DNA of 64,000 bases. Source: Proteiniphilum saccharofermentans. Lineage in GTDB: Bacteria > Bacteroidota > Bacteroidia > Bacteroidales > Dysgonomonadaceae. The position numbers were made by a program, and so were the translations under genes. Location: the NCBI RefSeq assembly GCF_900095135.1, contig NZ_LT605205.1, forward strand, positions 2,852,001-2,916,000, written 5' to 3'. The notes under the pieces are model-generated. The model did not search any database and was not told the origin of the DNA. It was given only the letters and a program-made list of their open reading frames with translations. Position 1 is the first letter of the stretch. Each line of letters starts with the position of its first letter. This document shows positions 12,331 to 33,108 of the stretch, in pieces.

Positions 12331-13128
12331 TTACTCCGGCCATGCGGCAATAAAAAGTCCCCAGTCAAAATCAGGATCATACCGGGTTTTCCAATTATCA
12401 TAATAAAAACGACAAAACGAACGGATAACGTATCCGTCTTGGTTATGATCGGTTATATCGTATGGGTCGGCTAAAATAAGTATGTCATCTTCTTTCGTTT
12501 CCGTCCCCATCGTATCGTAACCGATTACTACCTGCCAATGCCCTTCCCATTCGTTGGTGCCGACAATGACAGGAATATTGCGTTTCAAATAATCAGGGAA
12601 TAAATTTTTTGGAGTATCTTCCTTTTTCTTATAGTCGAATGTAGAAGCATATCTAAATCCTCCGACCGCGTCGAAAATGCTCAACAAATGCCTCAGATAA
12701 GTGGTATCCTGGGCAGTACCCCGTAATTCTTTCAGAATTTTCTCATTGTAATTCCCCTTTTTACCGAAATGTTCCAGTACCATCAGCACACATGCAGGAC
12801 CACAGGTGACCTCTGTAGCCTGTTGGATCGTCTTAAAATTCTTCAACAGCACAAGGGTTCCCTCACTTTCCATATTGTAAAAATCATAGGACATGAAGTA
12901 AGGCGAATTTTTGATATCCAGCCTTCGTTCTGATTTTGCCGCCCCGTCCAACGGTAATACGGAGTCGTGTGAAATTTTATGTACATCCGTATAATCCGAA
13001 AGTATATATTCCTCGTTTTGAAATGATACAGTCTTTTCATTGACAGTTGATCCTGTACAACTGCCTACGGCAAAAACAATACATAAAGCAGTAATAATTA
13101 TATTGATCTGCATATCATTTCTTTTCAT
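12331..13128 (-). CDS. C39-like cysteine peptidase lipoprotein
   Basis: A 265-residue protein with a lipoprotein signal (ITALCIVFAVGSC, lipidated Cys about 24). The catalytic region begins near residue 105 with QATEVTCGPACVLMVLEHF, the Q...C motif of peptidase family C39. It continues to a HWQVVIGYD segment carrying the His and a downstream ILADPYD Asp, giving a Gln/Cys/His/Asp set. C39 domains classically remove double-glycine leader peptides inside transporters; stand-alone lipoprotein versions are common in bacteria and their substrates are unknown. No ABC transporter is attached. It follows the S9 peptidase by 49 nt and probably belongs to the same degradative operon. Confidence 0.78.
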   Translation of the reverse strand: MKRNDMQINIIITALCIVFAVGSCTGSTVNEKTVSFQNEEYILSDYTDVHKISHDSVLPLDGAAKSERRLDIKNSPYFMSYDFYNMESEGTLVLLKNFKTIQQATEVTCGPACVLMVLEHFGKKGNYNEKILKELRGTAQDTTYLRHLLSIFDAVGGFRYASTFDYKKKEDTPKNLFPDYLKRNIPVIVGTNEWEGHWQVVIGYDTMGTETKEDDILILADPYDITDHNQDGYVIRSFCRFYYDNWKTRYDPDFDWGLFIAAWPE

Positions 13129-20007: not shown

Positions 20008-20349
20008 ATTCTAATTTTTTTAGAAAAAAGCGCTCCCGCGTCCGACTCCAATTGGCTTATGGGAGCGCTTATCTTTTTTAACGAATTAATTTCTCTTAAG
20101 TACAAGATTGAAATTAGTTTATATTATCCTCCCCTACTTATAGTCATTGATATTCTAACTATAAATAATCAGATAATTAAAACGATTTTAGGCTTCTGTA
20201 CTTAAGTCAATACTGTTGTTATTTCAGTATTAAAAATTTCCGGAATTATTAAATAAATACACTGTTACTATTGTCTCATCATAGGCGCATAATTTTATTA
20301 TTATTTATTACGGATTTATTTACAAGAAACAAAAAGAAAACCAGCAGCA
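20008..20349. other. 342-nt intergenic region upstream of SusC1
   Basis: No gene is visible in either direction. The SusC1-proximal part holds the conserved hairpin at 20028-20070. Further upstream is a pair of exact 10-bp inverted arms, CTTAAGTACA (20095-20104) and TGTACTTAAG (20197-20206). No good TAnnTTTG promoter was found on the minus strand. The rest is AT-rich. Confidence 0.4.
20028..20070 (-). promoter_or_regulatory. Conserved leader hairpin/possible attenuator before SusC1
   Basis: Perfect 10-bp arms AAGCGCTCCC (20028-20037) and GGGAGCGCTT (20061-20070) enclose a loop containing CCAATTGG. Read toward SusC1, the stem is followed by six T residues, so it looks like an intrinsic terminator, yet its base is only 20 nt from the SusC1 ATG. 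That leaves no space for a promoter. A near-identical stem-loop precedes SusC2 at 28698-28742. It may attenuate read-through into susC or mark a duplicated leader. Confidence 0.6.
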
Positions 20350-22869
20350 CTATCTTCCGGAAATATTATTCCCGAATAGAACCGCATTCACAAAAGTACG
20401 GCCCGTAGCATCCCATATTCCGCGGAACAACGGATCTTCGGCAAAGAGGATCACACTCCCCCTGCCGGAATTATTCGCCAGGATAGAGGCGGAACCTTTC
20501 AGCCTCTCCAGATGTTCGGAAGAGATATAACCATTGAGCAAGGGATCGTCGGTATATACGGATACCGCATTGGATGAAGGAGCAAGAAACAAGGCGCTTT
20601 CCCGTACTACCGGCAGTTTTTCGCTTGTCAGCCCGAAAGCCAGGGGATGTTCCAGGTCTATCTTTGTCTGGAATACAGATGTCGGGAATCTTCCGAACGA
20701 ACGGGACGAAACACCTGTGCCTTGCCTTTGCCCGGTAGTATCAGGTCTTTCTACTAATTTTGCCGAAGTAACTTTGTTGCTTATCGCCCATCGGGAAGCT
20801 CCGTTAAGGGTAATAAGCGTACCTCCGTTCCTAACCCAGTTTTTTAAGTTTTCGATCTCCGATTCATTCAAAAACGAATAATTTCCACTTACAAAAACGA
20901 TCCGGTTGAATTCATTCAGAGGAACCCGTCCGAAAATGTTGAAATCGACGCGTACCAACGGATATTTTAATTGCTGGTCGAACAGATGCCACACTTCGCC
21001 GGCTTCAAGCGATGAGACATCACCTCCTGTCACGACCAGTACTTTCGGTTTCTCTATCCGCTTAAAGGTGCTGCTGCCCAGGTCGACTCCCTTCACATTA
21101 AGGCCTGTAGAGACAGGAATAATATCAATTTTTTCCTGTTCCGCCAGTTCTTTCAATATCGCATATAATTCGGAGGAAGAGATAGTCTGATTTTTTACGG
21201 GAATAAGCAGGCTACCATAAGAAAAATCCCTCACACCTTTATCCGTACTTATGGAGAACGGTTTAAAGGCCGATTTAACCAGAATATCTCTCTCCAAAAG
21301 CCTGAAAAGCAATTGTTGGCTTTTCGAGTCACGATAATCCACCAGGTAGGCATACTCCGACGGTTGCAAACTGCCGGTATATACTTGCGGTAATGTCTGT
21401 ACCCTTGCTCCCCTCGACGAAGAGGCTGTTACATTATAAGAAAGCCCGGTGGAATAAGCGACAGAAAAACCGGCTCCGTAACCCAATTTTGAAGCATCGT
21501 CATACTCTTTTATATCGTCGAAAATAATTCCCACCAACGCGCTGTTAGGTTGTCCTGCCGGAATGATGTAGGATTTTCCCTTTTCATATTGTACACTGTC
21601 TATTGTGACGTCGTTTGCATTTTCATATACTTCCAGGCGGTGGTCGAGTAACAGCTGGACGAACTTGTGCAATCGGGACAGGTCATAGCTATCGCCGATA
21701 ATATATGATTTCGAAGCCTCCCTTCCCCGAAGCGGGGTAAAAAATTCCTTCTGAAGATCGAATAAAGCATCTCTATGCGCTATGGCTGCATCAACCGTCG
21801 CAATGCTTGTTACCAACTGGTTCCTTACGGTAAAGGGAAGCGTCACGATCCCGTTATCCGATTCCTGTTTCAGACCTCTCGACGATCCCTGCTCAAAAAG
21901 GATTCCCACGCCTCCGTTATAATCGGGATAAGTAGAACCAAAATTCGGGTTTTTATTGTCGTAAGATTCTTTTGTATAATAAAAGGAGCCGATTTTATCC
22001 AGTGCTTTGGCGTAATGATCTGCAAAAAGCCGGTTAAGCTGATAGGTCGATTGCGGAACAAAGCGGCTCTCATTCCCATCGGGGTCAGTCGGTTCGAAAA
22101 AGAAGGTACTATTTGTCCCCATTTCATGATGGTCAGCCTGCACATGAGGCAGCCAATCCTGATAAAACGCTACACGCGCCTTACTTTCAGGATGCACGAT
22201 ATTCACCCAATCGCGGTTGAGGTCAAACCAATAGTGGTTGCCGCGGCCTCTGGGCCAACCCTCTGTATGCTCACGGTCGAACTGGGAAATATTGTAGCTA
22301 TTTACACTTGTATTCGAGTTCACCCATGAGGCGAAGCGCTCCTGTCCGTCGGGATTGCGTACGGGATCAATAAAATAGATCCCCTCTTCCAGCTGTTTCA
22401 ATAAAAAATCATTTTGCGCGGCTACGTAATAATAAGCCGACAATAATGCCGCTTCCGAGGAAGAGATTTCGTTCCCATGCACCGTATTTCCCAGGAAGAC
22501 GATCAGCGGGCTGTCCGGCTTTTCTCCCTGGCGAACGTTCTTTCGGGCTTCTTTATACCTATCTAGATTTCTTATATTTTCGGGTGATGAAACGATCAGT
22601 ACATACAGCTTACGCTTTTCATGCGTTTGCCCGATCTCTATCAGGGAAGTCCTGTCGGATAGTTCGGCGAGCTTCTCGTAATATGCATTTATTCTACTGT
22701 GTTCGGTAATCCTGCTACCGATCTCATAACCTAAAAACTCTTCCGGAGTCGGGATGGTTGAATCGAATATTACTTCCGGAGCAAAGAAATAATCTGTTTT
22801 CTCCGCTTTCACATGAGCAGACAACAGTACTGCAAGTGATATAATAATTGTCGTTATAACTTTTTTCAT
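20350..22869 (-). CDS. Secreted M14 family zinc carboxypeptidase
   Basis: An 839-residue protein with a signal peptide (TTIIISLAVLLSAHVKAE). The M14 domain covers about 40-380. Zinc-binding HGNE is in GNTVHGNEISSSEAALL, substrate-binding residues are in DPVRNPDGQERF, the third zinc His region is VQADHHEMGTNS, and the catalytic Glu is in GGVGILFEQGSSRG. The remaining C-terminal half (about 400-839) includes a Rossmann-like region (PKVLVVTGGDVSSLEAGEVW) resembling a glutamine-amidotransferase-like fold; its role is unknown. Carboxypeptidases remove C-terminal residues from peptides. It lies between the TlpA/SusD2/SusC2 group and SusC1 on the same strand. Confidence 0.9.
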   Translation of the reverse strand: MKKVITTIIISLAVLLSAHVKAEKTDYFFAPEVIFDSTIPTPEEFLGYEIGSRITEHSRINAYYEKLAELSDRTSLIEIGQTHEKRKLYVLIVSSPENIRNLDRYKEARKNVRQGEKPDSPLIVFLGNTVHGNEISSSEAALLSAYYYVAAQNDFLLKQLEEGIYFIDPVRNPDGQERFASWVNSNTSVNSYNISQFDREHTEGWPRGRGNHYWFDLNRDWVNIVHPESKARVAFYQDWLPHVQADHHEMGTNSTFFFEPTDPDGNESRFVPQSTYQLNRLFADHYAKALDKIGSFYYTKESYDNKNPNFGSTYPDYNGGVGILFEQGSSRGLKQESDNGIVTLPFTVRNQLVTSIATVDAAIAHRDALFDLQKEFFTPLRGREASKSYIIGDSYDLSRLHKFVQLLLDHRLEVYENANDVTIDSVQYEKGKSYIIPAGQPNSALVGIIFDDIKEYDDASKLGYGAGFSVAYSTGLSYNVTASSSRGARVQTLPQVYTGSLQPSEYAYLVDYRDSKSQQLLFRLLERDILVKSAFKPFSISTDKGVRDFSYGSLLIPVKNQTISSSELYAILKELAEQEKIDIIPVSTGLNVKGVDLGSSTFKRIEKPKVLVVTGGDVSSLEAGEVWHLFDQQLKYPLVRVDFNIFGRVPLNEFNRIVFVSGNYSFLNESEIENLKNWVRNGGTLITLNGASRWAISNKVTSAKLVERPDTTGQRQGTGVSSRSFGRFPTSVFQTKIDLEHPLAFGLTSEKLPVVRESALFLAPSSNAVSVYTDDPLLNGYISSEHLERLKGSASILANNSGRGSVILFAEDPLFRGIWDATGRTFVNAVLFGNNISGR

Positions 22870-22967: not shown

Positions 22968-23963
22968 TCAATTTTCAATTTTTGACAACAAATCACCCAA
23001 AGTCTTATCTAACTCTTCCCCTTTGAGATTCCGGGCAACGATAGTACCGTTTTTATCTATCAGGAAATTAGCAGGAATGGCTCTCACGCCGTATAATTTT
23101 GCCGGTTCGCTATCCCAATGTAACAAGTCGGAAGTATGCGTCCATGTAAGGTTATCTTTTTCAATGGCTTCCAACCATCTCTCCCTGCTTTTGTCAAGTG
23201 ATACGGAAAAAACGCCAAAACCTTTGTCCTTGTATTTACCATACGCGGCTACCTTACCCGGGTTTGCCCTTCGGCAAGGTCCGCACCACGATGCCCAGAA
23301 GTCAAGCAGCACATATTCTCCTCCCAAATAATCCGAAAATCTTACCGTATTCCCTTCCGTATTACTCACTATAAAGTCGGGTGCTTGCTTACCGATCGCT
23401 ACCACTTCGAGAGTACTTATCAATTCTTCCAACGTTTGTACGTATGGCGTTTTCCATAAAGAAGGATCAAGCAATTCAATATTTGACCTGATCTCTTCGG
23501 GTGACAACCGGTAGGAAAAATCGCGATAAAGGGCATAAGCCGATACCAGCGAAGCAGGATGTTGACGGATGAACGAGTCGATCTTCACATGGCGTTGCGC
23601 TTTGTATTCCACAAACAAATCGTGCAACTTCGAACCTTCTACTTTCGTGTTGCGATAATAACGTGAAGAATCAAGATGTATCGTTACCGGACTTTCATCG
23701 AAAAAGACGAGGAAGGAATTTTTCAATGTATCCAATGTTAACCCGTAAATTTCCGGAAGTTCTATATCCTTTGAAAAGCGGAATTTTCCGTCTGTTATTG
23801 CTGCTGAGTCTATTACAAAAAATGTTTTGTTACTGAATTTCTGCAAATAGACCGTACCGGATTGCACACCCTCAACTGTACCGTTGAGCGTAAAACTGTT
23901 TTTGTCTTTGCATGAGAATGCCACAAAAATGATTGCGATTAATAATAAGTTCTTCTTCATCAT
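22968..23963 (-). CDS. TlpA-like thiol-disulfide reductase lipoprotein with N-terminal DUF4369-type domain
   Basis: A 331-residue protein with a lipoprotein signal (LLLIAIIFVAFSC). The N-terminal beta-rich domain (about 20-120, TLNGTVEGVQSGTVYLQKF) resembles DUF4369. The C-terminal thioredoxin fold (about 195-331) carries the active-site motif FWASWCGPCRRA. It would exchange thiols and disulfides in the periplasm. Its start codon overlaps the SusD2 stop codon (ATGA), indicating translational coupling, a common arrangement of TlpA-like proteins with SusCD pairs in Bacteroidetes. What it reduces is unknown; Cys-rich substrates are one possibility in this peptide-handling block. Confidence 0.88.
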   Translation of the reverse strand: MMKKNLLLIAIIFVAFSCKDKNSFTLNGTVEGVQSGTVYLQKFSNKTFFVIDSAAITDGKFRFSKDIELPEIYGLTLDTLKNSFLVFFDESPVTIHLDSSRYYRNTKVEGSKLHDLFVEYKAQRHVKIDSFIRQHPASLVSAYALYRDFSYRLSPEEIRSNIELLDPSLWKTPYVQTLEELISTLEVVAIGKQAPDFIVSNTEGNTVRFSDYLGGEYVLLDFWASWCGPCRRANPGKVAAYGKYKDKGFGVFSVSLDKSRERWLEAIEKDNLTWTHTSDLLHWDSEPAKLYGVRAIPANFLIDKNGTIVARNLKGEELDKTLGDLLSKIEN

Positions 23964-25483
23964 TTATCTAAATTAGGATTGTTATTGATCTCGTTTAATG
24001 GAATAGGGAAAAGATAATACTTACTGTTAGGCACTAAATCGGTGCCATCGGGGAATTTGGTGATCCAATGTCCTCTTACAGACACCGTTCTACCCTCATC
24101 ATCTACAAAAGTCTCCGTTGTTTCCCGACGGACAGGTGCTGTTTGTAAGCGCAGAATATCATACAGGCGGAAACCTTCGCCCCAGAGTTCACGCCGACGT
24201 TCAAGCAGGATTTCATCGATGATACCCTCCTTGTCAAAATCGGTTGCCGACAGATCAGAAAGATTTCTGTTGCGGCGCAATTCATTCAGCGTTCCAACGG
24301 CGCCATTCACATCATTCAACCGGGCTTTGCTTTCAGCCTCAATAAGTAATACTTCCGAAGAACGCATCAGAACAATATGCCCGTCGTGATTAGGATATTT
24401 ATTCCTGAATTTCTTATACCTGTAATGCCTATACAGTGCCTCTGCCGGTTGCGTGGCTATCTCGAAAAGCGATTTACGTATATCCCCATCGTCAAACAGA
24501 GCTATAAAATGGGGATCAGGCATGATGCTGTTGTAACCGTAATAAAGATTCGTTCCGTTTGCATCTGTGGTGTAAGGCGTTGTTTCTATATATGCCAGAT
24601 ATGACGCGCCTCCCTTGTTCTGAGTCTGGGTTTGCGGATGCCCCCAGATCCATTCCGGATTACTGACATCATTAAATCCTCCGGTATATTGTTCAGGCGT
24701 CATAACAGGATAGCCTGCACGGGCCCTGGCTGCGTACTCGGCTGCAAGTTCCCAATTTTCAAGCGTAAGATAGGTACGGGCAAATAATCCGTACACCACG
24801 TTAATATCGGGACGGTTCTTCACTGTACGTTCAAATCCTGGAAGCAGTTTCTCCGCCTCCGTCAGATCTTTAATAATCAAATCATATACCTCACTGACTG
24901 TCGACAGGGGATTGGGATTGGTACTGGGAGTCGTAGGCTCGGTATAGACAGGAATAGCTTTCGTATTCGCATCTTTTACGTATGTGAACTGGTACTGACG
25001 TACCAGGTTTAAATAATTGTATGCGCGTAAAGCATAAGCCTGCCCTTTGAGATGTTTTATGCTCTGTTTTGTACTCTCATCGATATCAATATTGGCAATT
25101 ATATTGTTCGCATGATCAATCGATGTGTATTGCAAAGTCCAGAAGAACAAAGCACGCCTTGTCGTATTATCGAACGGATCGCGGTATGGATATGAATCAC
25201 GAAATCCATAACGCCCGTCACGTGCAAAAGCATCTTCACCCATTACTTCATGTGTAAGAAAAATGGCGGGAAGTCCCGGATTATCCTGGGATGTACTGTT
25301 TTCCATCAGATAACGAATTGCCCCGTTAATAAAGGCATCGATATTGTCCTCGGAAGAGAAAACCTCCGGTGTAGTAATCAGGGTTGCCGGAGAAGTCTCG
25401 AAAAAACTGTCGCTGCACGACGTAAGTAGAGTCGATGTAAATAATGATAAAGCGACCAGTATATATATAAATTTCAGCTTCAT
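23960..25483 (-). CDS. RagB/SusD family outer-membrane lipoprotein (SusD2)
   Basis: A 507-residue protein with a lipoprotein signal (LVALSLFTSTLLTSC). SusD features include HLKGQAYALRAYNYLNLVRQYQF, VVYGLFARTYLTLENWELAAEYA, LMRSSEVLLIEAESKARL and the terminal FPIPLNEINNNPNL motif. It starts 13 nt after SusC2 and overlaps the TlpA gene by 4 nt, so the three genes are tightly coupled. It would bind ligand at the cell surface for SusC2. Peptide cargo is inferred from the flanking TlpA and carboxypeptidase genes. Confidence 0.93.
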   Translation of the reverse strand: MKLKFIYILVALSLFTSTLLTSCSDSFFETSPATLITTPEVFSSEDNIDAFINGAIRYLMENSTSQDNPGLPAIFLTHEVMGEDAFARDGRYGFRDSYPYRDPFDNTTRRALFFWTLQYTSIDHANNIIANIDIDESTKQSIKHLKGQAYALRAYNYLNLVRQYQFTYVKDANTKAIPVYTEPTTPSTNPNPLSTVSEVYDLIIKDLTEAEKLLPGFERTVKNRPDINVVYGLFARTYLTLENWELAAEYAARARAGYPVMTPEQYTGGFNDVSNPEWIWGHPQTQTQNKGGASYLAYIETTPYTTDANGTNLYYGYNSIMPDPHFIALFDDGDIRKSLFEIATQPAEALYRHYRYKKFRNKYPNHDGHIVLMRSSEVLLIEAESKARLNDVNGAVGTLNELRRNRNLSDLSATDFDKEGIIDEILLERRRELWGEGFRLYDILRLQTAPVRRETTETFVDDEGRTVSVRGHWITKFPDGTDLVPNSKYYLFPIPLNEINNNPNLDK

Positions 25484-25496
25484 AATCTTATCTTAA

Positions 25497-28400
25497 TTAA
25501 AATGACACATTAATTCCCAGTGAATATGATTTTTGCGCGGGATAACGGTAGAATGTCGAGCCGGAAACGGTTTGCTCGGGATCCAATCCCTTATGACCGA
25601 AGAAAGTCAGAATATTATCACCTGTGAGATACAGTCTCAGATCCGATAAATTCCAGTTCGATAATAATTGCTGTGGGAATGAATAGGAAAAAACAACATT
25701 TTTCAGGCGTGCATACGTAGCGCTATATAGAAATCGAGTCGATGGAATTGTATTCCACGGGTCGGAGACATAAGAGAGGCGGGGAAAATCGGTATCTCTG
25801 TTTTCCGGGGTCCAACGCGTAAGTGCTTCTTTCGACCAGTTCCGGCCGGGTGCATATCCCAAATGCATGATAAACGGTTGGTCGCCATCAAATATCTTAC
25901 CTCCTATACTATACGATAAAAGGAATGACAGTTCAAATCCTTTATAGGAAATCCGGTTGTTCAAACCACCATAAAAATCAGGCAATGAACTTCCCTGGAA
26001 GTACTGTGTGGCTTCTGTCTGATCTTCGGTAGTAGTCCGTCCGGTTACATTTCCATTTTCGTCAACAATATCTTTATACCATGTGGCTTTCCCATTTTCA
26101 GGATTGACTCCCGCCCATTCCTTGATATAAAAGTCATAGACCGAGCCACCTTCTACCATTTTCTTGGTATTTCCGAATTGTCCTATCGAACCTGTAAGTA
26201 TTTCTTCCTGGGGCAATTTGGTTATTTTATTGGTATAATGTCCGAAGTTGAGAGTAATATCCCAATTGAAATCTTTATTCCGGATAGGCGTACCGGTTAT
26301 CTGCCCGTCGATACCTCTGTTGCTCAATGAACCGATATTGGCATTGATGCCGCTATAACCGGTGGAAGGAGAAAGCGGTTTTTCAAACAGCAAGTCTTTC
26401 GATTGCCGGTTATACACATCGATCTGGGCGATCAACCGGTTCTCGAACAGGGAAATATCTATCCCGAAATTGAGATTTAAGTTTGTTTCCCATTTCAATT
26501 CGGGCGTTGGAAGCTCAGACGGCAATAATCCCAGCATATCCAGACTGTTATAGATCTCATAAAAACCGCCGTAAGCATAATTACCCACATTGTCGTTACC
26601 TTGTGCTCCGTAGCTGAAACGAAGGTTTAGGTTGTCGATATCCCTCACATGCTGCAGGAAATTTTCCCTCTTCACATTCCAGGCGGCGCCCACCGACCAG
26701 AAATTACCCCAGCGCGACTCCTTACTAAAACGTGAAGAGCCATCACGGCGGTAACTGGCAGAGAAATGATAACGATCAAGAAGATTGTAATCCAGTTTAC
26801 TCAACCAACTTGCCAACCGGTAATTGTCGGAAGTTCCGTAGAAGATGCCGCTTGTGGAACCTGCCGAAGGTTCGGTTTTACCCAATACCTGGAAGCCGGT
26901 GCGGCTTCCTGACAATGATGATACATTATTTACATATATTTCCGGCCCGGCAAGCAGGTTAAAGGAATGTGATTTACCCAGGCCAAAGCTATAATCGATA
27001 AAACTGTTGACCGTATAGTTGAGTGTGCGGCTTGCGCTCCTGCTGGCAGTACCTGCACCTTCGGATATTACCCCCGTGCTGTAATAGGAATGGGAATAAG
27101 AGTGCGAACTTCCTGTCCTGTAATCGACACTTGCTGTCGTCTTCCACAATAAACCGGGTAGAAAAGTGATATTGAAGTTTGTGCTAAGCAATGCAGCCTC
27201 TGTTTTACTACCCGATATGGCATGTTCCGCACTTCCGAGAATATTCACTCCGCTGGCGGCTGTAGTGGGACGCCATACGCCATAATCCCATTTTTTATTC
27301 CCGTTTTCGTCCAACACGTACGAACCATCGGGATTACGTTCGTAAACAGGATAAATATTGGAAATAAGGCGTTGGAAATTGGCAAAGTTTCCCGTATTAC
27401 TGTCGCTTTGGTTGGGAGATCTTTGATAACTCGACGAAAGTGAGGCATTCCCACCGATCTCGAACCAGTTATTGATCTTCGATTGTATGTTTGTACGGAA
27501 ATTGAAACGTTCGTATTCAGCAGTTCTTATCCACCCTTCTTCATTTAAATATCCCCCTGACAGGAAATATCTTGTATTAGCACTTCCACCACTGACACTC
27601 AGATCGTATTGCTGACGTATTCCGAGTCGTGAGATCGCTTTACCCCAGTCGTCATTCCATAACGGCGTTGCTCCGGCAACCAATTTTCCGTCCGTACCGA
27701 CAGGCTTAGGATACTGAGGGCCGTAGATATTCACTTTAAGTGCACCGTCAACGAGGTAATCGGTCGCATATTGAGCAGCTTCTGCAGCAGTTCTACCCTG
27801 GTCTGACTGGGTATTGCGGATGGCCTCCCATTGCAATTCGTAATATTCGTTTGCAGAGAGATACTCGTAGTCTTTGACGGCGCGGCTCGTAAACCCCACA
27901 CTACTCGAAAAATTGACTACCGGTTTCGTGTTGAGATTTCCCGATTTAGTGGTGATAACGATTACACCATTAGCGCCTCTCGATCCATAAAGGGCACTTG
28001 CAGTAGCATCCTTCAGTATCGATATCGACTGAATATCTTTCCCGCTTATCTGATTGGGATTTGCTCCGGGAACACCATCCACAACATACAGAGGCGATGT
28101 GGAAGCATTGACTGAGCCTATCCCGCGCACATACAGCGAAGCATCGCTACCGGGCTGACCCGCGGAAGAAACTGACTGAAGTCCCGGGACCGTCCCCTGT
28201 AAAGCCTTCCCGACAGAAGTGATTTCCAGTTTTTCCAACTCCCTGGCTCCAACCACTGCGACCGATCCCGTATAGCTGGACTTTTTGGCTGTACCATAAC
28301 CTACCACAACCACTTCGTCGAGATAATTAATATCTTCCGACAATATTACCCTTATGATTTCATTTGCCTCATATACATCGATTTCCTGTGTCTTATAACC

Positions 28401-28673
28401 CAAAAGGTTAATTGTCAATGTAAGCGGAAGCGATTGGTCTGTGGTAAAACTGAAATTCCCGTCTATATCGGTTGCTGTTCCGATAGTGGTCGATTTTATA
28501 GCAACAGCAACTCCGGGAAGCGGATGATTCTCTTTATCAACGACTGTACCCCGTATGGTTTCCTGCCCATAAGTACTGAAAGAACACAAAAGAAGGATTA
28601 AAAAAACGTAAATACCTTTTTTTAATATGAGGGATAATCTTCTGTTCCTGTAAAAAAGTGATACATTTGTCAT
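25497..28673 (-). CDS. SusC/RagA family TonB-linked outer-membrane protein (SusC2)
   Basis: A 1058-residue TonB-dependent transporter. A signal peptide (LKKGIYVFLILLLCSFSTYG) is followed by a carboxypeptidase-like regulatory domain (about 39-125), a plug (DEVVVVGYGTAKKSSYTGSV) and a barrel ending LGINVSF. The first 125 residues align almost without gaps to SusC1, with blocks such as LGYKTQEIDVYE and SEDINYLDEVVVVGYGT identical, while plug and barrel differ. It is downstream of a PstS-like gene and a conserved hairpin. It forms the transport pair with SusD2. Confidence 0.95.
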   Translation of the reverse strand: MTNVSLFYRNRRLSLILKKGIYVFLILLLCSFSTYGQETIRGTVVDKENHPLPGVAVAIKSTTIGTATDIDGNFSFTTDQSLPLTLTINLLGYKTQEIDVYEANEIIRVILSEDINYLDEVVVVGYGTAKKSSYTGSVAVVGARELEKLEITSVGKALQGTVPGLQSVSSAGQPGSDASLYVRGIGSVNASTSPLYVVDGVPGANPNQISGKDIQSISILKDATASALYGSRGANGVIVITTKSGNLNTKPVVNFSSSVGFTSRAVKDYEYLSANEYYELQWEAIRNTQSDQGRTAAEAAQYATDYLVDGALKVNIYGPQYPKPVGTDGKLVAGATPLWNDDWGKAISRLGIRQQYDLSVSGGSANTRYFLSGGYLNEEGWIRTAEYERFNFRTNIQSKINNWFEIGGNASLSSSYQRSPNQSDSNTGNFANFQRLISNIYPVYERNPDGSYVLDENGNKKWDYGVWRPTTAASGVNILGSAEHAISGSKTEAALLSTNFNITFLPGLLWKTTASVDYRTGSSHSYSHSYYSTGVISEGAGTASRSASRTLNYTVNSFIDYSFGLGKSHSFNLLAGPEIYVNNVSSLSGSRTGFQVLGKTEPSAGSTSGIFYGTSDNYRLASWLSKLDYNLLDRYHFSASYRRDGSSRFSKESRWGNFWSVGAAWNVKRENFLQHVRDIDNLNLRFSYGAQGNDNVGNYAYGGFYEIYNSLDMLGLLPSELPTPELKWETNLNLNFGIDISLFENRLIAQIDVYNRQSKDLLFEKPLSPSTGYSGINANIGSLSNRGIDGQITGTPIRNKDFNWDITLNFGHYTNKITKLPQEEILTGSIGQFGNTKKMVEGGSVYDFYIKEWAGVNPENGKATWYKDIVDENGNVTGRTTTEDQTEATQYFQGSSLPDFYGGLNNRISYKGFELSFLLSYSIGGKIFDGDQPFIMHLGYAPGRNWSKEALTRWTPENRDTDFPRLSYVSDPWNTIPSTRFLYSATYARLKNVVFSYSFPQQLLSNWNLSDLRLYLTGDNILTFFGHKGLDPEQTVSGSTFYRYPAQKSYSLGINVSF

Positions 28674-28697
28674 ATTCTAATTTTTTTAGAGTGAATA

Positions 28698-28742
28698 TAA
28701 GCGCTTCCGCGTCCGACTGCAATTGGCTAATGGGAGCGCTTA
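28698..28742 (-). promoter_or_regulatory. Conserved leader hairpin before SusC2
   Basis: The arms TAAGCGCTTCC (28698-28708) and GGGAGCGCTTA (28732-28742) pair with one G-T pair. The loop is nearly identical to that at 20038-20060, including CAATTG and GTCCGACT. The distance to the SusC2 ATG (28673) is 24 nt, as at SusC1. Unlike the SusC1 copy there is no T-tract directly after the stem, so it is a hairpin but not an obvious terminator. It lies in the 118-nt gap after the PstS-like gene. Confidence 0.55.
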
Positions 28743-28791
28743 TCTTTTTGTTGCAACGAATGATTTTATATATTTCTTATTTTCAAACACT

Positions 28792-29727
28792 TCAGTAAGT
28801 AGCTGTCAGAAGCAAATCCTCAATCTCCTTCAACTGTGCAGACAAAATGGCCTCTTCGACCTTAAGAAAACCGTATTCCTGATTATATTTTTGTCCTTCC
28901 GAGAGGATCCATTTCAAAAATCTTTTTGCCGGAATATTATTCTCCTGATAAACGAATCCGATATTTTCAACAGGGATAAGCGATATCCTTTCATTTTCGA
29001 GCAGAGCTATAGTCTTGTCAATATCGGCTTCCTGCAATATTTCACGCTGTTCTTTTTTTATATCTAAAGGAATAAGGGCTAAGCCGTTTTTCAATCCTCG
29101 GGTATCAATATCGAAGATATAACTGAGATTATTAAATGTGACCCCTGAATTATCTTTCTGTATGGCATTTATAAGGAAAATATCGTCACCGGATATTTTT
29201 CGTCCTCTGATATCAGCTGCAGAATATCCGAAGTGAGAGGCAAAGGTGCCGGCAAAGGAATTGCTATTGGTCCCCGAATAGATCGTTATATCATATTTTT
29301 GTTTATCCGACGAATCGGAATATTCATCAAGATTATCCTTGTCAAAAAACAGATCTTCCAACCTCTTACCATTTAATCTTTTCCGCTTCAGTTCGTTTAA
29401 CAGCGGATTGTCCGCATTGGTAACCGGAAGCAAAGCATATCGTCCGGTATATGATACAATTTGATTTCCATTTTCAGCCCCCTCTTCATTGATGGAAGTG
29501 ATAAAGCTTAAATCGATATCTTCAGCGGATGATTGCCCTTCCGCAAACTTAATTTCTATTTGGGAGTTCACTTTTTCATACTCAGAAGCCCATTTTTCTA
29601 TAAGAGGTGTGGCAAACCGTGCACTCTTAATGTATATCACTTCCCTGGAATTCTGCTGAGCTATAGCGTTTGTAGAAAACAATACAGCAACTACTAATGA
29701 TAACCTAATAAATCCAAATCTTTTCAT
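28792..29727 (-). CDS. PstS-like periplasmic substrate-binding protein
   Basis: The ATG at 29727 gives MKRFGFIRLSLVVAVLFSTNAIAQ, a normal signal peptide; an ATG two codons upstream (29733) is also possible. The 311-residue protein has the layout of the PBP_like/PstS fold: VIYIKSARFATPLIEKWASEYEK, IDLSFITSINEE, ITIYSGTNSNSFAGTFASHFGY and NSGVTFNNLSYIFD resemble phosphate-binding loops. No ABC permease or ATPase is nearby, so it does not serve a local Pst transporter. It is encoded after two Cys/Met-rich micro-ORFs and a terminator, and before SusC2. The ligand is unknown; it could be a surface- or TonB-associated binder. Confidence 0.65.
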   Translation of the reverse strand: MKRFGFIRLSLVVAVLFSTNAIAQQNSREVIYIKSARFATPLIEKWASEYEKVNSQIEIKFAEGQSSAEDIDLSFITSINEEGAENGNQIVSYTGRYALLPVTNADNPLLNELKRKRLNGKRLEDLFFDKDNLDEYSDSSDKQKYDITIYSGTNSNSFAGTFASHFGYSAADIRGRKISGDDIFLINAIQKDNSGVTFNNLSYIFDIDTRGLKNGLALIPLDIKKEQREILQEADIDKTIALLENERISLIPVENIGFVYQENNIPAKRFLKWILSEGQKYNQEYGFLKVEEAILSAQLKEIEDLLLTATY

Positions 29728-29760
29728 TGTCATTCGTTTTTTTAATAATTAATATTGAGC

Positions 29761-29803
29761 AAAAAAAAAACTCCACCGAAGCCGTATCGGTGGAGTTTTT
29801 TAT
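29761..29803 (-). terminator. Intrinsic terminator between micro-ORF 1 and the PstS-like gene
   Basis: A 12-bp perfect stem AAACTCCACCGA/TCGGTGGAGTTT (29768-29779 and 29787-29798) is followed on the minus strand by ten T residues, with T residues also on the plus side. Only about 28 nt separate it from the PstS-like start, too little for a promoter, so expression of that gene from this side requires read-through. Confidence 0.8.
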
Positions 29804-29825
29804 GTTTTATGTTTTTATTATAATA

Positions 29826-29945
29826 CTATTTTCCCCTATCCAATACGATATGATTCCTGACCATACACATAGCCATACAGCAACACATCGTCATACAACA
29901 TGTAGTACAAGTATTATCGTTATATTGGATAAAATATTTATTCAT
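29826..29945 (-). CDS. Cys/Met-rich micro-ORF 1 (39 residues)
   Basis: ATG at 29945 and TAG at 29826-29828. The peptide begins MNKYFIQYNDNTCTT, then the core CCMTMCCCMAMCM, then a short basic tail (VRNHIVLDRGK). It has seven Cys and six Met (including the start) in 39 residues and no signal peptide or membrane segment. It resembles micro-ORF 2 upstream: both have an aromatic-aliphatic-Gln start (FIQ/FLQ), a T-x-C-x-T element and a CCM...MCM core. It lies between two intrinsic terminators with no room for its own promoter. Possible roles are a Cys/Met attenuator leader, a Cu(I)/Zn-binding microprotein, or a precursor of a modified peptide. I do not recognise the family. Confidence 0.55.
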   Translation of the reverse strand: MNKYFIQYNDNTCTTCCMTMCCCMAMCMVRNHIVLDRGK

Positions 29946-29977
29946 TTGATTTTTTTAATTGACTCTAACCCTAAGAT

Positions 29978-30016
29978 AAAAAAACTCTCCTGATATTTTA
30001 TTGTACCAGGAGAGTT
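29978..30016 (-). terminator. Intrinsic terminator after micro-ORF 2
   Basis: A perfect 10-bp stem AACTCTCCTG/CAGGAGAGTT (29983-29992 and 30007-30016) with a run of seven T residues on the minus strand. It lies 32 nt before the micro-ORF 1 start and 32 nt after the micro-ORF 2 stop. Each Cys/Met-rich ORF is therefore followed at a similar distance by its own terminator. Confidence 0.8.
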
Positions 30017-30047
30017 CTATATTAACGTAATATATTCTATTGTTCTT

Positions 30048-30173
30048 TTATTCTACTCCGACACAACATCGCCTGAAGGACATACACATGTCCATACACA
30101 TACACATGCAACATCCCCTTTTTACTGAAGTGTTACATATTGTTGCGGCTGTATCTTGTAAAAATATTCTCAC
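30048..30173 (-). CDS. Cys/Met-rich micro-ORF 2 (41 residues, GTG start)
   Basis: GTG at 30173 and TAA at 30048-30050; the frame is closed by a TGA a short way upstream and contains no earlier ATG. The N-terminal part reads (M)RIFLQDTAATICNTS, then KRG, then the core CCMCMCMDMCM, then SFRRCCVGVE. It carries eight Cys and five internal Met in 41 residues. The T-x-C-x-T element, FLQ motif and CCM/MCM core match micro-ORF 1, which argues against chance. A TACTTTTG -7 element lies 32 nt upstream. No maturase, protease or transporter typical of modified peptides is in the window. The start codon is the weakest part of the call. Confidence 0.5.
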   Translation of the reverse strand: MRIFLQDTAATICNTSVKRGCCMCMCMDMCMSFRRCCVGVE

Positions 30174-30204
30174 TATCGTTTTGTCTTTATTTATATTTCA
30201 AAAA

Positions 30205-30212
30205 CAAAAGTA
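30205..30212 (-). promoter_or_regulatory. Candidate -7 element for the micro-ORF transcript
   Basis: Minus-strand TACTTTTG fits the Bacteroidetes TAnnTTTG -7 consensus. A TTTG lies 22 nt further upstream, slightly longer than the ideal spacing. The predicted transcript would start about 25 nt before the GTG of micro-ORF 2. Nothing else was recognised in the 30174-30455 gap between this transcript and the divergent GNAT gene. Confidence 0.4.
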
Positions 30213-30455
30213 ATGCATTTTTGTTCATTCTACACAAAAAATAATATCTTTTTTCATAGTATTTTTCGAATAAAATTACAAAAATCTCATTTTCAACTCA
30301 CAAGGATATCATTTTTAACATTTCCACAAACTCCGTACTGGTTCAATCTTTTTTCCTTGCTTAACAAGTAAAGCATTTTACGACTCAACAAATCAGAAGA
30401 GGAATATGTTTTAATAAAGTAGGTCACAAACAGGTCACAATTAAAATTGAATGAT

Positions 30456-30800
30456 ATGGATATACAATTCAGAATAGACAACAGTAACCGGGGTAGTTTT
30501 TTCATTGAACAGGAAGGGCGGCAGGTCGCTGAACTGGATTTCGAAATAAAAGATAATCTGCTGAACGCCTATCATACAGGCGTACGTCCAGAACTGGAAG
30601 GGCAAGGTATTGCCGGAAGATTATTCAATGAGATGGTCAATTATGCACGGGAGAATGGATATCAGGTAATCCCGTCATGCTCCTATATCCTGGCAAAATT
30701 CCGCAGGCGCCCTGATGATTACAACGATATATGGTATCGTTCCAAAGATGAACCCACAGGAGAGGCCTGTGGTATTAAGCCGAAAGACAAGAATAACTGA
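30456..30800 (+). CDS. Small GNAT-type N-acetyltransferase
   Basis: The ATG at 30456 was chosen; an in-frame TTG nine bases upstream is less likely. The 114-residue protein matches the compact acetyltransferase family (Acetyltransf_CG-like, YidJ/YjdJ type). The beta-strand AELDFEIKDNLLNAYHTGV leads into the acetyl-CoA-binding turn RPELEGQGIAGRLFNEMV, then ARENGYQVIPSCSYI with a Cys/Ser-containing motif typical of the group, then FRRRPDDYNDIW. Such proteins bind acetyl-CoA; substrates are mostly unknown. It is a single gene, divergent from the micro-ORF transcript and convergent with the thioredoxin-like gene at 30962. Confidence 0.82.
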   Translation: MDIQFRIDNSNRGSFFIEQEGRQVAELDFEIKDNLLNAYHTGVRPELEGQGIAGRLFNEMVNYARENGYQVIPSCSYILAKFRRRPDDYNDIWYRSKDEPTGEACGIKPKDKNN

Positions 30801-30861
30801 ATGTCATCAAATAAAGTAAACTTTAAAAAATTGAAGGCGAACATCGGCTATTGAAAAAAGC

Positions 30862-30917
30862 AAAAAATCCGCCGGAACCTGCATACTTCCCGAAAGGAGG
30901 ATTGCAATCCGGCGGAT
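30862..30917 (-). terminator. Intrinsic terminator after the thioredoxin-like gene
   Basis: The arms ATCCGCCGGA (30867-30876) and TCCGGCGGAT (30908-30917) are exact complements, and six T residues follow on the minus strand. It lies 45 nt beyond the stop of the gene at 30962. The 31-nt loop is long for a terminator, but the GC-rich stem and T-tract support the call. Confidence 0.65.
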
Positions 30918-30961
30918 AAAATTCCGCATTATTTATTCTGCGTTCTAATAACCCAAAACTA

Positions 30962-31564
30962 TTATCCCTTTGGCTTTATAGTGCAACCAATCGCTACTGT
31001 TGTTGCAGGATCGGGGTTATTACCGGCCAGTAAAGCACGTACTGCATTCGCTGCATACGGAGCGGTCACAGCCGCTGGATCCTGATAATTATCATCCACG
31101 GTTCCGGTATAAACTACCACAAACCGTCCATTACCTTCATTTTTTAACAGGAAGATCTCCGGAGTGCGGGTAGCACCGTATGCCGGATATACCTGTTGTC
31201 CTTCATCCACCAGGTAAGGGAAAGGGAAGTTCTTTTCAGCAGCCCTTTTTTTCATCTCTTCAAAAGAGTCGGCAGGTGATTGTACCGGATCGTTCGGGTT
31301 GATATACACCACCGGAACTCCCTGTGGAGCAAACTCATTATGCAAAGCGATCATACGGTCTTCATAAGCCTGCACATAAGGACAAGGGTTACAGGAGAAG
31401 ATCACCACCACCCCTTTCTCATTTGCGTAATCGGACAAAGAGACGGTCGTACCATCGATATTCTTCAGTGAGAAATCGGGTGCAACGGAACCGACCGCGA
31501 TAGGTTGCGCGTTCAACGATAATGCGCTCAACGTCAAAACTGATAAAATTAAAAACTGTTTCAT
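30962..31564 (-). CDS. Secreted thioredoxin/peroxiredoxin-fold protein
   Basis: The ATG at 31564 gives the signal peptide MKQFLILSVLTLSALSLNAQ; an ATG four codons upstream (31576) is less likely. The mature protein is an AhpC/TSA-type redoxin: IAVGSVAPDFSLKNIDGTTVSLSDY, then VVIFSCNPCPYVQAYEDRM with a CxxC motif, then YPAYGATRTPEIFLL with the cis-Pro region. Family members act as periplasmic thiol reductases or peroxidases with unknown partners. It follows a TlpA-like gene by about 20 nt on the same strand, so the pair is probably co-transcribed. Confidence 0.87.
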   Translation of the reverse strand: MKQFLILSVLTLSALSLNAQPIAVGSVAPDFSLKNIDGTTVSLSDYANEKGVVVIFSCNPCPYVQAYEDRMIALHNEFAPQGVPVVYINPNDPVQSPADSFEEMKKRAAEKNFPFPYLVDEGQQVYPAYGATRTPEIFLLKNEGNGRFVVVYTGTVDDNYQDPAAVTAPYAANAVRALLAGNNPDPATTVAIGCTIKPKG

Positions 31565-31584
31565 TGTTACTGTCATTTAAAATG

Positions 31585-32100
31585 TTAATTAGCCAATAGA
31601 GGTTGTACAATCTCTTCCAGTTCAGCCAAGGTGAGTTCTTTCGGATAAAATTTCCTGAACCCGTTCCCATAGACAAGCGTAGCAGGTATGGCACCGGTCC
31701 AGCTCTTGTCCACCAAAGGTATCCAATCATTGAACCTGGGATCATCCAAAAGAATGACCTCATTCTTCATCTTCTCCTTTTCAATAAAGGGGATCAGTTT
31801 CGTTTCTAACTGGCTACGCATATCAAGGCTTACCATAAGCACCTTTACATTCCTGTCACGGTACTTTTCGCCGAATTCTTCAAAATAAGGAATCTCTTTG
31901 AGACAGGGAGCACACCATGTGGCCCAGAAATTCACCACATATATAGTGTCGTCCTCTTGTTCCAACAAAGGTTGAAGTTGTTTGAAATCGACCACTTTTA
32001 TCTCTGTTTCGCTTTTCCTGTTTTCCGAAAAAAGGAGAAAAGGAATTAGCAGAAACAGCAGGCCCGGAAGCAGACGAAATATATTTTTTACCTTGTTCAT
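31585..32100 (-). CDS. TlpA family thiol-disulfide reductase
   Basis: The start was set at the ATG at 32100 (MNKVKNIFRLLPGLLFLLIPFLL), which places the hydrophobic signal/anchor near the N-terminus; a start at 32139 would put 13 hydrophilic residues before it. The 171-residue protein has the thioredoxin active site VNFWATWCAPCLKEIPYFEEF, the strand VKVLMVSLDM and the cis-Pro segment TGAIPATLVYG. It would be a periplasmic, membrane-anchored or exported reductase. It is directly upstream of the redoxin gene at 30962-31564, so the two may form a small redox operon. Confidence 0.9.
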   Translation of the reverse strand: MNKVKNIFRLLPGLLFLLIPFLLFSENRKSETEIKVVDFKQLQPLLEQEDDTIYVVNFWATWCAPCLKEIPYFEEFGEKYRDRNVKVLMVSLDMRSQLETKLIPFIEKEKMKNEVILLDDPRFNDWIPLVDKSWTGAIPATLVYGNGFRKFYPKELTLAELEEIVQPLLAN

Positions 32101-32215
32101 TTTTCTGTGCGATTGATACTGTGATTTCTCGGTAAACAAACAATAAACGGGTCTTGTTCACTTAATAATCGACGGAACTTGTTAAAGATCAAGTAAAAAA
32201 CGTTAAGGTATCAAG

Positions 32216-32246
32216 AAAAAAGTGCAGGCCGGAGCCCACACTTTTT
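32216..32246 (-). terminator. Terminator downstream of nagB
   Basis: The stem formed by AAAAAGTG and CACACTTTTT closes a GC-rich inner stem (AGGCC/GGAGCCC region). T-runs occur on both sides, so it could work in either direction. It lies between the nagB stop and the TlpA-like gene start. Confidence 0.55.
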
Positions 32247-32298
32247 ATCTTCTAAACGGTAGCGGTTATATAGAATTGGCAATACACCAACCAATACA

Positions 32299-33108
32299 CT
32301 ACAGTAGCGAATCCGGATTCAGATTATCATGTTCGATATCGAGAAAATACTTGTAAGTACCCACTTTCAGTTCGGCGCAGGCATCGTAATCGCAAACAAT
32401 GATCCCTTTTTCATGCAATTGCAAGGCACTGATCGTCCACATCTGGTTAATAGATCCTTCCACGGCGTGATAGAGCGCACGGGCCTTATGATGTCCGTTG
32501 ACAAGGATAAGCACTTCCCTGGCATCAAGTACAGTACCTACTCCTACTGTCAGCGCTGTTTTAGGTACCTTGTTCACATCGTTATCAAAAAATCTGGAGT
32601 TGGCAATCACCGTATCGGTGGTAAGCGTTTTCACACGTGTACGCGAACTAAGCGAAGAGCCGGGTTCGTTGAAGGCGATATGCCCATCGGGGCCGATCCC
32701 ACCAAGGAAAAGGTCGATACCTCCCGCCTCTGCTATGGCCAGTTCATATGCGGCACATTCAGCTTCCGGATCTTCTGCCATTCCGTCGAGGATATATACA
32801 TTCTCCTTTTTAATATCGATATGACTGAAAAAATTATCCCACATAAAAGTGTGGTAACTTTGCGGGTGGTCTGCCGGCAAACCGATATACTCATCCATAT
32901 TAAACGTAATCACGTTCTCAAATGATACCTGTCCCGTTTCATACAATTTGATCAAAGCCTTGTAGGTCTTCAAAGGTGATGACCCGGTCGGCAATCCCAA
33001 TTTGAAAGGCTTCTCTGTCGTCGGTTTTGCACTATTGATCTTTGCTGCAATGTAATTTGCTGCCCATTGTGCCATCTGGTCGGCATCGGGCTGAATGATA
33101 AGTCTCAT
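32299..33108 (-). CDS. nagB: Glucosamine-6-phosphate deaminase
   Basis: 269 residues, close to the 266 of E. coli NagB. Signatures include [16 protein letters not shown] (phosphate loop), [11 protein letters not shown] (catalytic Asp), [21 protein letters not shown] (the NagB signature with the catalytic His region) and [23 protein letters not shown]. It converts glucosamine-6-phosphate to fructose-6-phosphate and ammonia in the cytosol, linking amino-sugar catabolism with glycolysis. No nagA or hexosaminidase gene is adjacent. A dispersed palindromic element (33145-33209) lies just upstream. Confidence 0.96.

Follow-up and report, generated by a model that had tools for sequence, protein, structure and literature searches.

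Two short ORFs rich in cysteine and methionine codons, each followed by a strong intrinsic terminator, precede an operon for a substrate-binding-like protein (SBP) and a SusC/SusD-type uptake system in Proteiniphilum saccharofermentans. We propose, with a probability of roughly 85%, that each ORF and its hairpin together work as a ribosome-mediated attenuator of transcription, gauging how much cysteine and, probably, how much methionine is available. The original prediction of two serial attenuators sensing sulfur amino acids is well supported: leaders and terminators are conserved, the end of each ORF is complementary to an arm of the terminator that follows, and copies of the element stand before cysK-metY, metN-metI and genes for Cys/Met PLP enzymes. 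We are less sure of a share for methionine in the sensing, and of the exchange of an operator for attenuators that is discussed below, than of attenuation itself.

The DNA under study, here called the window, is a stretch of 64,000 nt (bases 2852001-2916000) of the complete 4.41 Mb genome. The order on its minus strand is promoter-like sequence, ORF1, terminator 1, ORF2, terminator 2, SBP, SusC, SusD, DUF4369-thioredoxin and M14 (Table 1). Both ORFs were confirmed in the sequence with the coordinates and codon counts first reported for them. Each is indeed soon followed by a T-tract hairpin, 29 nt beyond ORF1 (-19.2 kcal/mol) and 24 nt beyond ORF2 (-18.9 kcal/mol). The gaps from terminator 1 to ORF2 and from terminator 2 to the SBP start are ~36 and ~31 nt, respectively, so that a promoter hardly fits either of them, as had also been claimed. 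Upstream of ORF1 lie TTTG (30238-30235) and TACTTTTG (30212-30205), which we take to resemble the Bacteroides -33/-7 promoter consensus. Proteiniphilum acetatigenes, the closest named relative found (93% identity for SBP and 99% for SusC), has both leader units. The stretch downstream of the M14 gene encodes a second SusC-SusD-like pair, identified by similarity alone, along with one S9 peptidase, one C39-like peptidase, two peptidases of M20 type and an SDF symporter. Upstream of the leaders are a small GNAT acetyltransferase gene (30447-30800, plus strand) and two AhpC/TSA-thioredoxin-like genes (30962-32139, minus strand).

Table 1. Features of the leader region and operon, in window positions.
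Feature	Position	Strand	Basis
Promoter-like sequence before ORF1, TTTG + 22 nt + TACTTTTG	30205..30238	-	Sequence; function putative
Leader ORF1, 41 codons, GTG start, MRIFLQDTAATICNTSVKRGCCMCMCMDMCMSFRRCCVGVE	30173-30048	-	ORF list; kept in 6/10 examinable genus genomes with SBP
Cys/Met codon cluster of leader 1, CCMCMCMDMCM	30081..30113	-	Sequence
Antiterminator 5′ strand, unit 1, TGTTGTGTCGGAGTAG, final ORF1 codons	30053..30068	-	Duplex -13.2 kcal/mol, p 0.058; masked folding
Intrinsic terminator 1 with T tract; 5′ arm doubles as antiterminator partner	29975..30018 (hairpin 30018-29981)	-	Hairpin scan, covariation
Leader ORF2, 39 codons, ATG start, MNKYFIQYNDNTCTTCCMTMCCCMAMCMVRNHIVLDRGK	29945-29826	-	ORF list, conservation
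Cys/Met codon cluster of leader 2, CTTCCMTMCCCMAMCM	29862..29909	-	Sequence
Antiterminator 5′ strand, unit 2, TCGTATTGGATAGGGG, final ORF2 codons	29833..29848	-	Duplex -16.2 kcal/mol, p 0.018; masked folding
Intrinsic terminator 2 with T tract	29756..29801 (hairpin 29801-29765)	-	Hairpin scan, covariation
Substrate-binding-like protein (SBP), 313 aa, first gene of the operon	28792..29733	-	Profile/homology searches
SusC/RagA-type outer-membrane transporter	25497..28673	-	TIGR04056
SusD-like lipoprotein	23960..25483	-	PF07980
DUF4369 + thioredoxin-like protein	22968..23963	-	PF14289, PF00578
M14 zinc carboxypeptidase	20350..22869	-	PF00246; shared transcript with operon putative

Among the 799 window ORFs of 20-70 codons, the two leaders rank first and second in cysteine plus internal methionine (13 and 12; the next has 9). 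The codon pattern CCM..MCM occurs three times in the 4.41 Mb genome, always inside ORF1 or ORF2, and its reversed control not at all. A T-x-C-x-T element had been described for both ORFs; it is exact in ORF1 (TICNT), whereas ORF2 has NTCTT. Five of six leader pairs gave dN/dS values of 0.13, 0.17, 0.34, 0.38 and 0.48, of which only 0.13 is significant alone (p 0.003), and the sixth pair has two nonsynonymous and no synonymous changes. An NCBIfam search with the two window leaders returned no match, and the three matches of curated Rfam models to window positions 27000-33000 are all below gathering scores (E 0.72-0.93).

Of 101 family genomes, 27 have the SBP; 11 of these belong to the window's genus, which is represented by 39 genomes. 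For one genus locus (L034) only 29 bases upstream of SBP are available, which leaves ten examinable genomes, our own included. All ten have Cys/Met leaders, each followed by a strong terminator; six genomes have a pair of leaders and four a single one. The search for conservation in relatives that had been set as a possible refutation thus leaves the claim standing. The genus leaders retain the codon cluster, often as MCCCxMxMCM, but differ in N terminus, in length and in the residues of the spacers. A weak genus match (L181) also has a Cys/Met leader; the stretch covered shows neither a clear terminator nor a downstream target.

The 3′ end of the ORF is complementary, at fixed spacing, to the upper part of the 5′ arm and the edge of the loop in the next terminator in 16 units, the two of the window and 14 from relatives, typically as GUAUCGG:CCGAUAC. 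Variants of this pairing set GTATCGG or GTGTCGG against CCGATAC or CTGGTAC. The two units of one locus pair GTATCAG with CTGGTAC (L031-2) and, with one mismatch, GTTGTGCCGG with CCGGGACAAC (L031-1). Tail-to-arm duplex energies range from -11.5 to -22.1 kcal/mol. Tested against shuffled tails, 12 of the 16 units reach p <0.05, the exceptions being window unit 1 (0.058), L027-2 (0.051), L031-1 (0.068) and L023-s (0.33), and these p values are non-independent because the units are related. In the alignment of all 16 units, standard pairs fill 96.4% of 112 antiterminator cells; in slid versions they fill 24-50%. Tails pair better with their own arm than with reassigned arms (p 0.021; within leader type, 0.011) in 14 of the 16 units, two L062 units being omitted as near copies, with the own arm ranking first in only 4 of the 14 and eighth of 14 for window unit 1.

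Compensatory changes are clear in the terminator stem (0 of 500 shuffles). Covariation in the antiterminator of the 16 units is weak by the same comparison (56 of 500), because most of the changes are G-U. In a set of 23 units, 94.4% of 160 antiterminator cells are paired (slid versions, 22-48%) and the antiterminator gives no covariation signal (172 of 500 shuffles); in this alignment the antiterminator block of one unit, L148, is out of register and mostly scored as unpaired. We also folded the leaders with a ribosome masking an assumed footprint of 14 nt. With the ribosome stalled at the Cys cluster, upstream pairing of the terminator 5′ arm before the 3′ arm is made amounts to 0.57-0.84; with the ribosome at the stop codon it is 0.00-0.34, a drop that occurs in 16 of 16 units. 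At equilibrium the terminator dominates in both ribosome states (0.88-0.99), and the choice of antitermination must therefore be kinetic. A conserved 1:2 pause or protector hairpin of the trp type was not found, the ribosome-free upstream pairing of the antiterminator strand ranging from 0.00 to 0.91.

The proposed course of events is as follows. When charged Cys-tRNA (or Met-tRNA) is plentiful, a translating ribosome would reach the stop codon, where its footprint would mask the last ORF codons; the terminator would then fold and transcription would end. When charged Cys-/Met-tRNA is scarce, the ribosome would stall within the Cys/Met cluster and leave the last codons free to pair with the emerging 5′ arm of the terminator, allowing RNA polymerase to read through. 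As the two units lie in series behind one promoter-like sequence, the SBP-SusC-SusD-thioredoxin operon, perhaps together with the M14 gene, would be expressed only when both have been passed. Their effects would multiply, which should yield tight repression and a steep response.

The same element occurs before other genes. A covariance model built from the 16 units (R1) matched 68 of 101 family genomes at E 0.1, in most cases weakly. Eleven R1 units away from the SBP locus were examined and nine have a Cys/Met leader; L150 and L152, which show no convincing one, were rejected as attenuator copies. A second twin in our own genome (L143, 3799273-3798922) precedes SusC, SusD and a thioredoxin paralogue. 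Another copy (L144) precedes a SusCD pair, and two more (L145, L146) precede a gene for a Cys/Met PLP enzyme. A genome of another genus (G040) has copies before SusCD (L147), before metN-metI with metQ four ORFs further down (L148), and before cysK and a metY-type O-acetylhomoserine sulfhydrylase gene (L151), as well as a Cys/Met leader at a contig end (L149). By NCBIfam, the cysK, sulfhydrylase, metI and metQ products score above cut-offs and the metN product and PLP enzymes below theirs. A GTATCGG-type tail and a matching terminator are visible in the sequence of the copies outside the SBP locus. Their duplex test gave p near 0.02 for L143-1, L143-2, L145 and L146, 0.065 for L151, 0.12 for L148, 0.34 for L147 and 0.51 for L149, the value for L144 not being used.

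A second model (R2), built from 23 units, matched 13 of the 39 genomes of the genus and 41 of the 393 of the order at E 0.001. Within our own genome it finds two loci only, neither of them before cysK or met genes. Of 29 order loci (L184-L212) searched for an ORF rich in cysteine, four had one. Three of these (L194, L201, L211), judged from the ORF tail alone, were not accepted as copies. The fourth (L192), from another family, has the leader MLKRIVKHMFCCCMASQTGLCFDLYD with a terminator and an antiterminator (p 0.024) before cysK and a hexapeptide transferase gene that, from its position, probably encodes serine acetyltransferase; as its sequence differs, it may have arisen independently. The CCM..MCM codon pattern was found in 13 of 101 genomes across the family. 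Three matches (L153-L155), which show no leader layout and fall inside or run across large ORFs, were set aside; the others outside the SBP locus are taken as chance, judging by their long spacers. In the window itself, the attenuator model gives a weak match (21.4 bits) at positions 20022-20184 (minus strand), ahead of the second SusC-like gene; it has a GC-rich terminator and no Cys-rich ORF. In G088, the copy at L144 is a full attenuator before the gene that corresponds to this SusC-like one.

These targets bear on what the leaders read. They might sense methionine, or charged initiator/elongator Met-tRNA, with the cysteine codons being secondary: over the last 26 codons of the 16 units methionine is nearly as frequent as cysteine (3-6 against 5-7), and the metN-metI copy would suit such a signal. 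However, it is the Cys runs that are constant, with seven cysteines and no methionine in the run at L077 and CCC in L192, and copies stand before cysK at both L151 and L192. We consider methionine as the principal signal improbable.

Sensing of a metal by the nascent peptides, as in CruR of Bordetella, appears very improbable. Cu(I) bound to CCM/MCM would here alter ribosome stalling and hence transporter expression; Cys/Met-rich motifs suit Cu(I), a formal CXXC is present in ORF1 (CCMC) and in ORF2 (CTTC), and in Bordetella a CXXC-bearing uORF controls a TonB-dependent receptor operon (PMC9426467). Yet other targets are sulfur amino-acid genes, the terminators are intrinsic with matching antiterminators and not Rho-dependent, the RAPP motif occurs in 0 of 16 leaders, and the Cys run of sister-genus leaders lies right at the stop codon, still within the ribosome. 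Least credible of all is the peptide function that the original prediction favoured at its close. On this view the ORFs would be genes for small peptides, secreted or modified, that act as metal buffers or serve as RiPP precursors, and each terminator would do no more than end a short transcript. A strong terminator does directly follow each ORF, N-terminal residues are shared (FIQ/FLQ, MNxxFIQYN), also in unlinked copies, and a C39-like peptidase gene lies ~17 kb downstream (12331-13128), but the common C-terminal residues CCIG and VLDRG encode the antiterminator, peptide length and the residues between cysteines vary, leaders of other genera end in a bare Cys run (CCCCCCC, MRMSMCCC or MRMHCC before the stop codon), the 19 window proteins scanned (sets of 10 and 7 with Pfam, some also with NCBIfam) gave no match to a peptide-modifying enzyme, and the SBP operon has no space for a promoter of its own.

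Cysteine leaders extend beyond the genus. Close SBPs (E below 1e-60) are found in 13 further family genomes outside it, and in 11 of the 13 a leader ORF has at least two cysteines in its last eight residues; L040 has a 10-residue ORF only and L041 no leader ORF. Among the leader ends, given up to the stop codon, are MRMCCCRMY, MRMSMCCC, MRMHCC (L035/L036) and MRMCMPC. The run often follows a near-constant ATGCGAATG (MRM) (L028-L042 regions, L074, L076, L077). Between the sister-genus leaders and SBP a scan gave no convincing terminator, with one weak structured match inside the L038 leader. Outside the family, Cys leaders are present at L074 and L076 (both MRMCCCCNE) and at L077 (CCCCCCC). L071 and L072 are without one, L073 has CC only, and L070 offers no upstream sequence to examine. 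At L075 no separate leader was recognised, and the SBP gene itself holds a Cys/Met run, MLIMLMMMCCYMNANAQ, in its signal region.

Upstream of SBP, within 700 nt, all 13 sister-genus genomes carry an exact ATACC-N8-GGTAT, as do the single-leader genus loci L024 and L026; the palindrome is absent upstream of all twin-leader loci and of L023 and L025. Chance would place it at ~2% of loci, even with one mismatch. It was also noted at L066. Whole-genome counts of the palindrome against its reversed pattern are 14 to 4 (G035), 20 to 4 (G024), 10 to 4 (G040), 11 to 8 (G017), 7 to 5 (G054), 2 to 5 (G074) and, in our own genome, 9 to 10. We examined 12 of 73 palindrome sites, picked for symmetric inner bases. 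It stands before cysK and metY-type genes at L232 (e.g. position 3053; HMM-confirmed) and, by sequence likeness only, at L236 and L239. The site in L237 precedes a gene for a Cys/Met PLP enzyme and that in L230 one for an SDF symporter; the other seven sites have no obvious sulfur gene. Its placement suggests that ATACC-N8-GGTAT is probably the operator of a putative sulfur regulator, which attenuators may have replaced in the window's lineage.

The SBP had been called PstS-like. For the window protein this is weak, since Pfam at E 0.001 gave no family and TIGR00975 (E 0.0069) is far below its cut-off; a search for a relative of solved structure found none at E 0.01. The name does fit a distant homologue (L097), which is PstS-like and lies beside PstC/PstA/PstB-like genes and an Rrf2-family regulator whose best specific match after the superfamily is CymR, far below cut-off. 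At both L097 and L098 the distant homologue follows an Rrf2-like regulator gene and precedes Pst-type ABC transporter genes (families searched for L097 only), and a transporter annotated there as one for ‘phosphate’ may in fact be one for sulfur. Cys/Met-metabolism genes adjoin SBP at L066, with PatB C-S lyase, and at L106; at L103, where an Rrf2-family regulator is also present, they are some genes away. Such neighbours, with the thioredoxin-like protein and the peptidases, suggest that the operon serves to take up sulfur-bearing peptides or disulfides and break them down, and it would import a sulfur source. An orphan SBP-SusCD-thioredoxin-peptidase operon would gain a testable role in sulfur scavenging.

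We give even odds to a wider reading, namely that this is the first complete Cys/Met-codon attenuator, with terminator and antiterminator, that it serves a small Dysgonomonadaceae sulfur regulon, often in doubled form, and that in this lineage it replaced an ATACC-N8-GGTAT operator marking overlapping sulfur targets in sister genera. If true, a protein-based sulfur switch was exchanged for tandem ribosome-based ones. A full version in Bacteroidales, placed before SusCD operons and also before cysK, metY-type and metN-metI genes, would show how these bacteria couple the uptake of nutrients across the outer membrane to their sulfur supply, and the tandem layout offers a natural setting in which to test what serial attenuation does to a response.

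The kind of mechanism is known; its complete cysteine(/methionine) form, in tandem, is new. Mycobacterial ‘polycysteine’ ORFs are reportedly the subject of Canestrari 2020. Among open-licence papers, none was found that describes a cysteine attenuator from Bacteroidota. Three papers touch on related matters: leader attenuation is suspected before amino-acid operons of Flavobacterium (PMC9723704), leader-like sORFs are described in Bacteroides thetaiotaomicron (PMC7366714), and a survey of premature terminators contains no word beginning with Bacteroid in its text (PMC2965389). Within the literature found, the only Cys-codon leaders described are actinobacterial and lack a terminator hairpin. 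The paper on them (PMC1262725) places ORFs with Cys runs before the cys operons of Mycobacterium and P. acnes and before cbs of B. longum, reports no conserved terminator hairpins and suggests Rho. What these leaders have in common with ours is a short ORF, ahead of cysteine genes, whose Cys codons lie close to the stop; the window leaders differ in having a terminator after each, in their antiterminators and in their phylum. CruR is a copper-responsive uORF with CXXC and a C-terminal RAPP arrest motif that acts through Rho. It is likewise a Cys-bearing uORF before a TonB-dependent receptor operon that works on transcription termination, and the window element differs from it in its intrinsic terminators, its lack of RAPP and its sulfur genes as other targets.

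The closest comparison is with the trp, his, leu and ilv leader attenuators. Like these, the element has a short, conserved ORF in which codons for the sensed amino acid stand in a run, an intrinsic terminator between leader and genes, and an antiterminator exclusive with the terminator and governed by the ribosome, within the limits of weak covariation and an equilibrium that favours the terminator. The controlled genes also belong to the sensed pathway at other copies (cysK, O-acetylhomoserine sulfhydrylase, metN-metI, Cys/Met PLP enzyme), and for the window operon by context only. Unlike them, it uses Cys/Met codons and two serial units, governs SusCD uptake as well as biosynthesis, dispenses with a conserved pause (1:2) hairpin and carries its antiterminator strand inside the end of the ORF.
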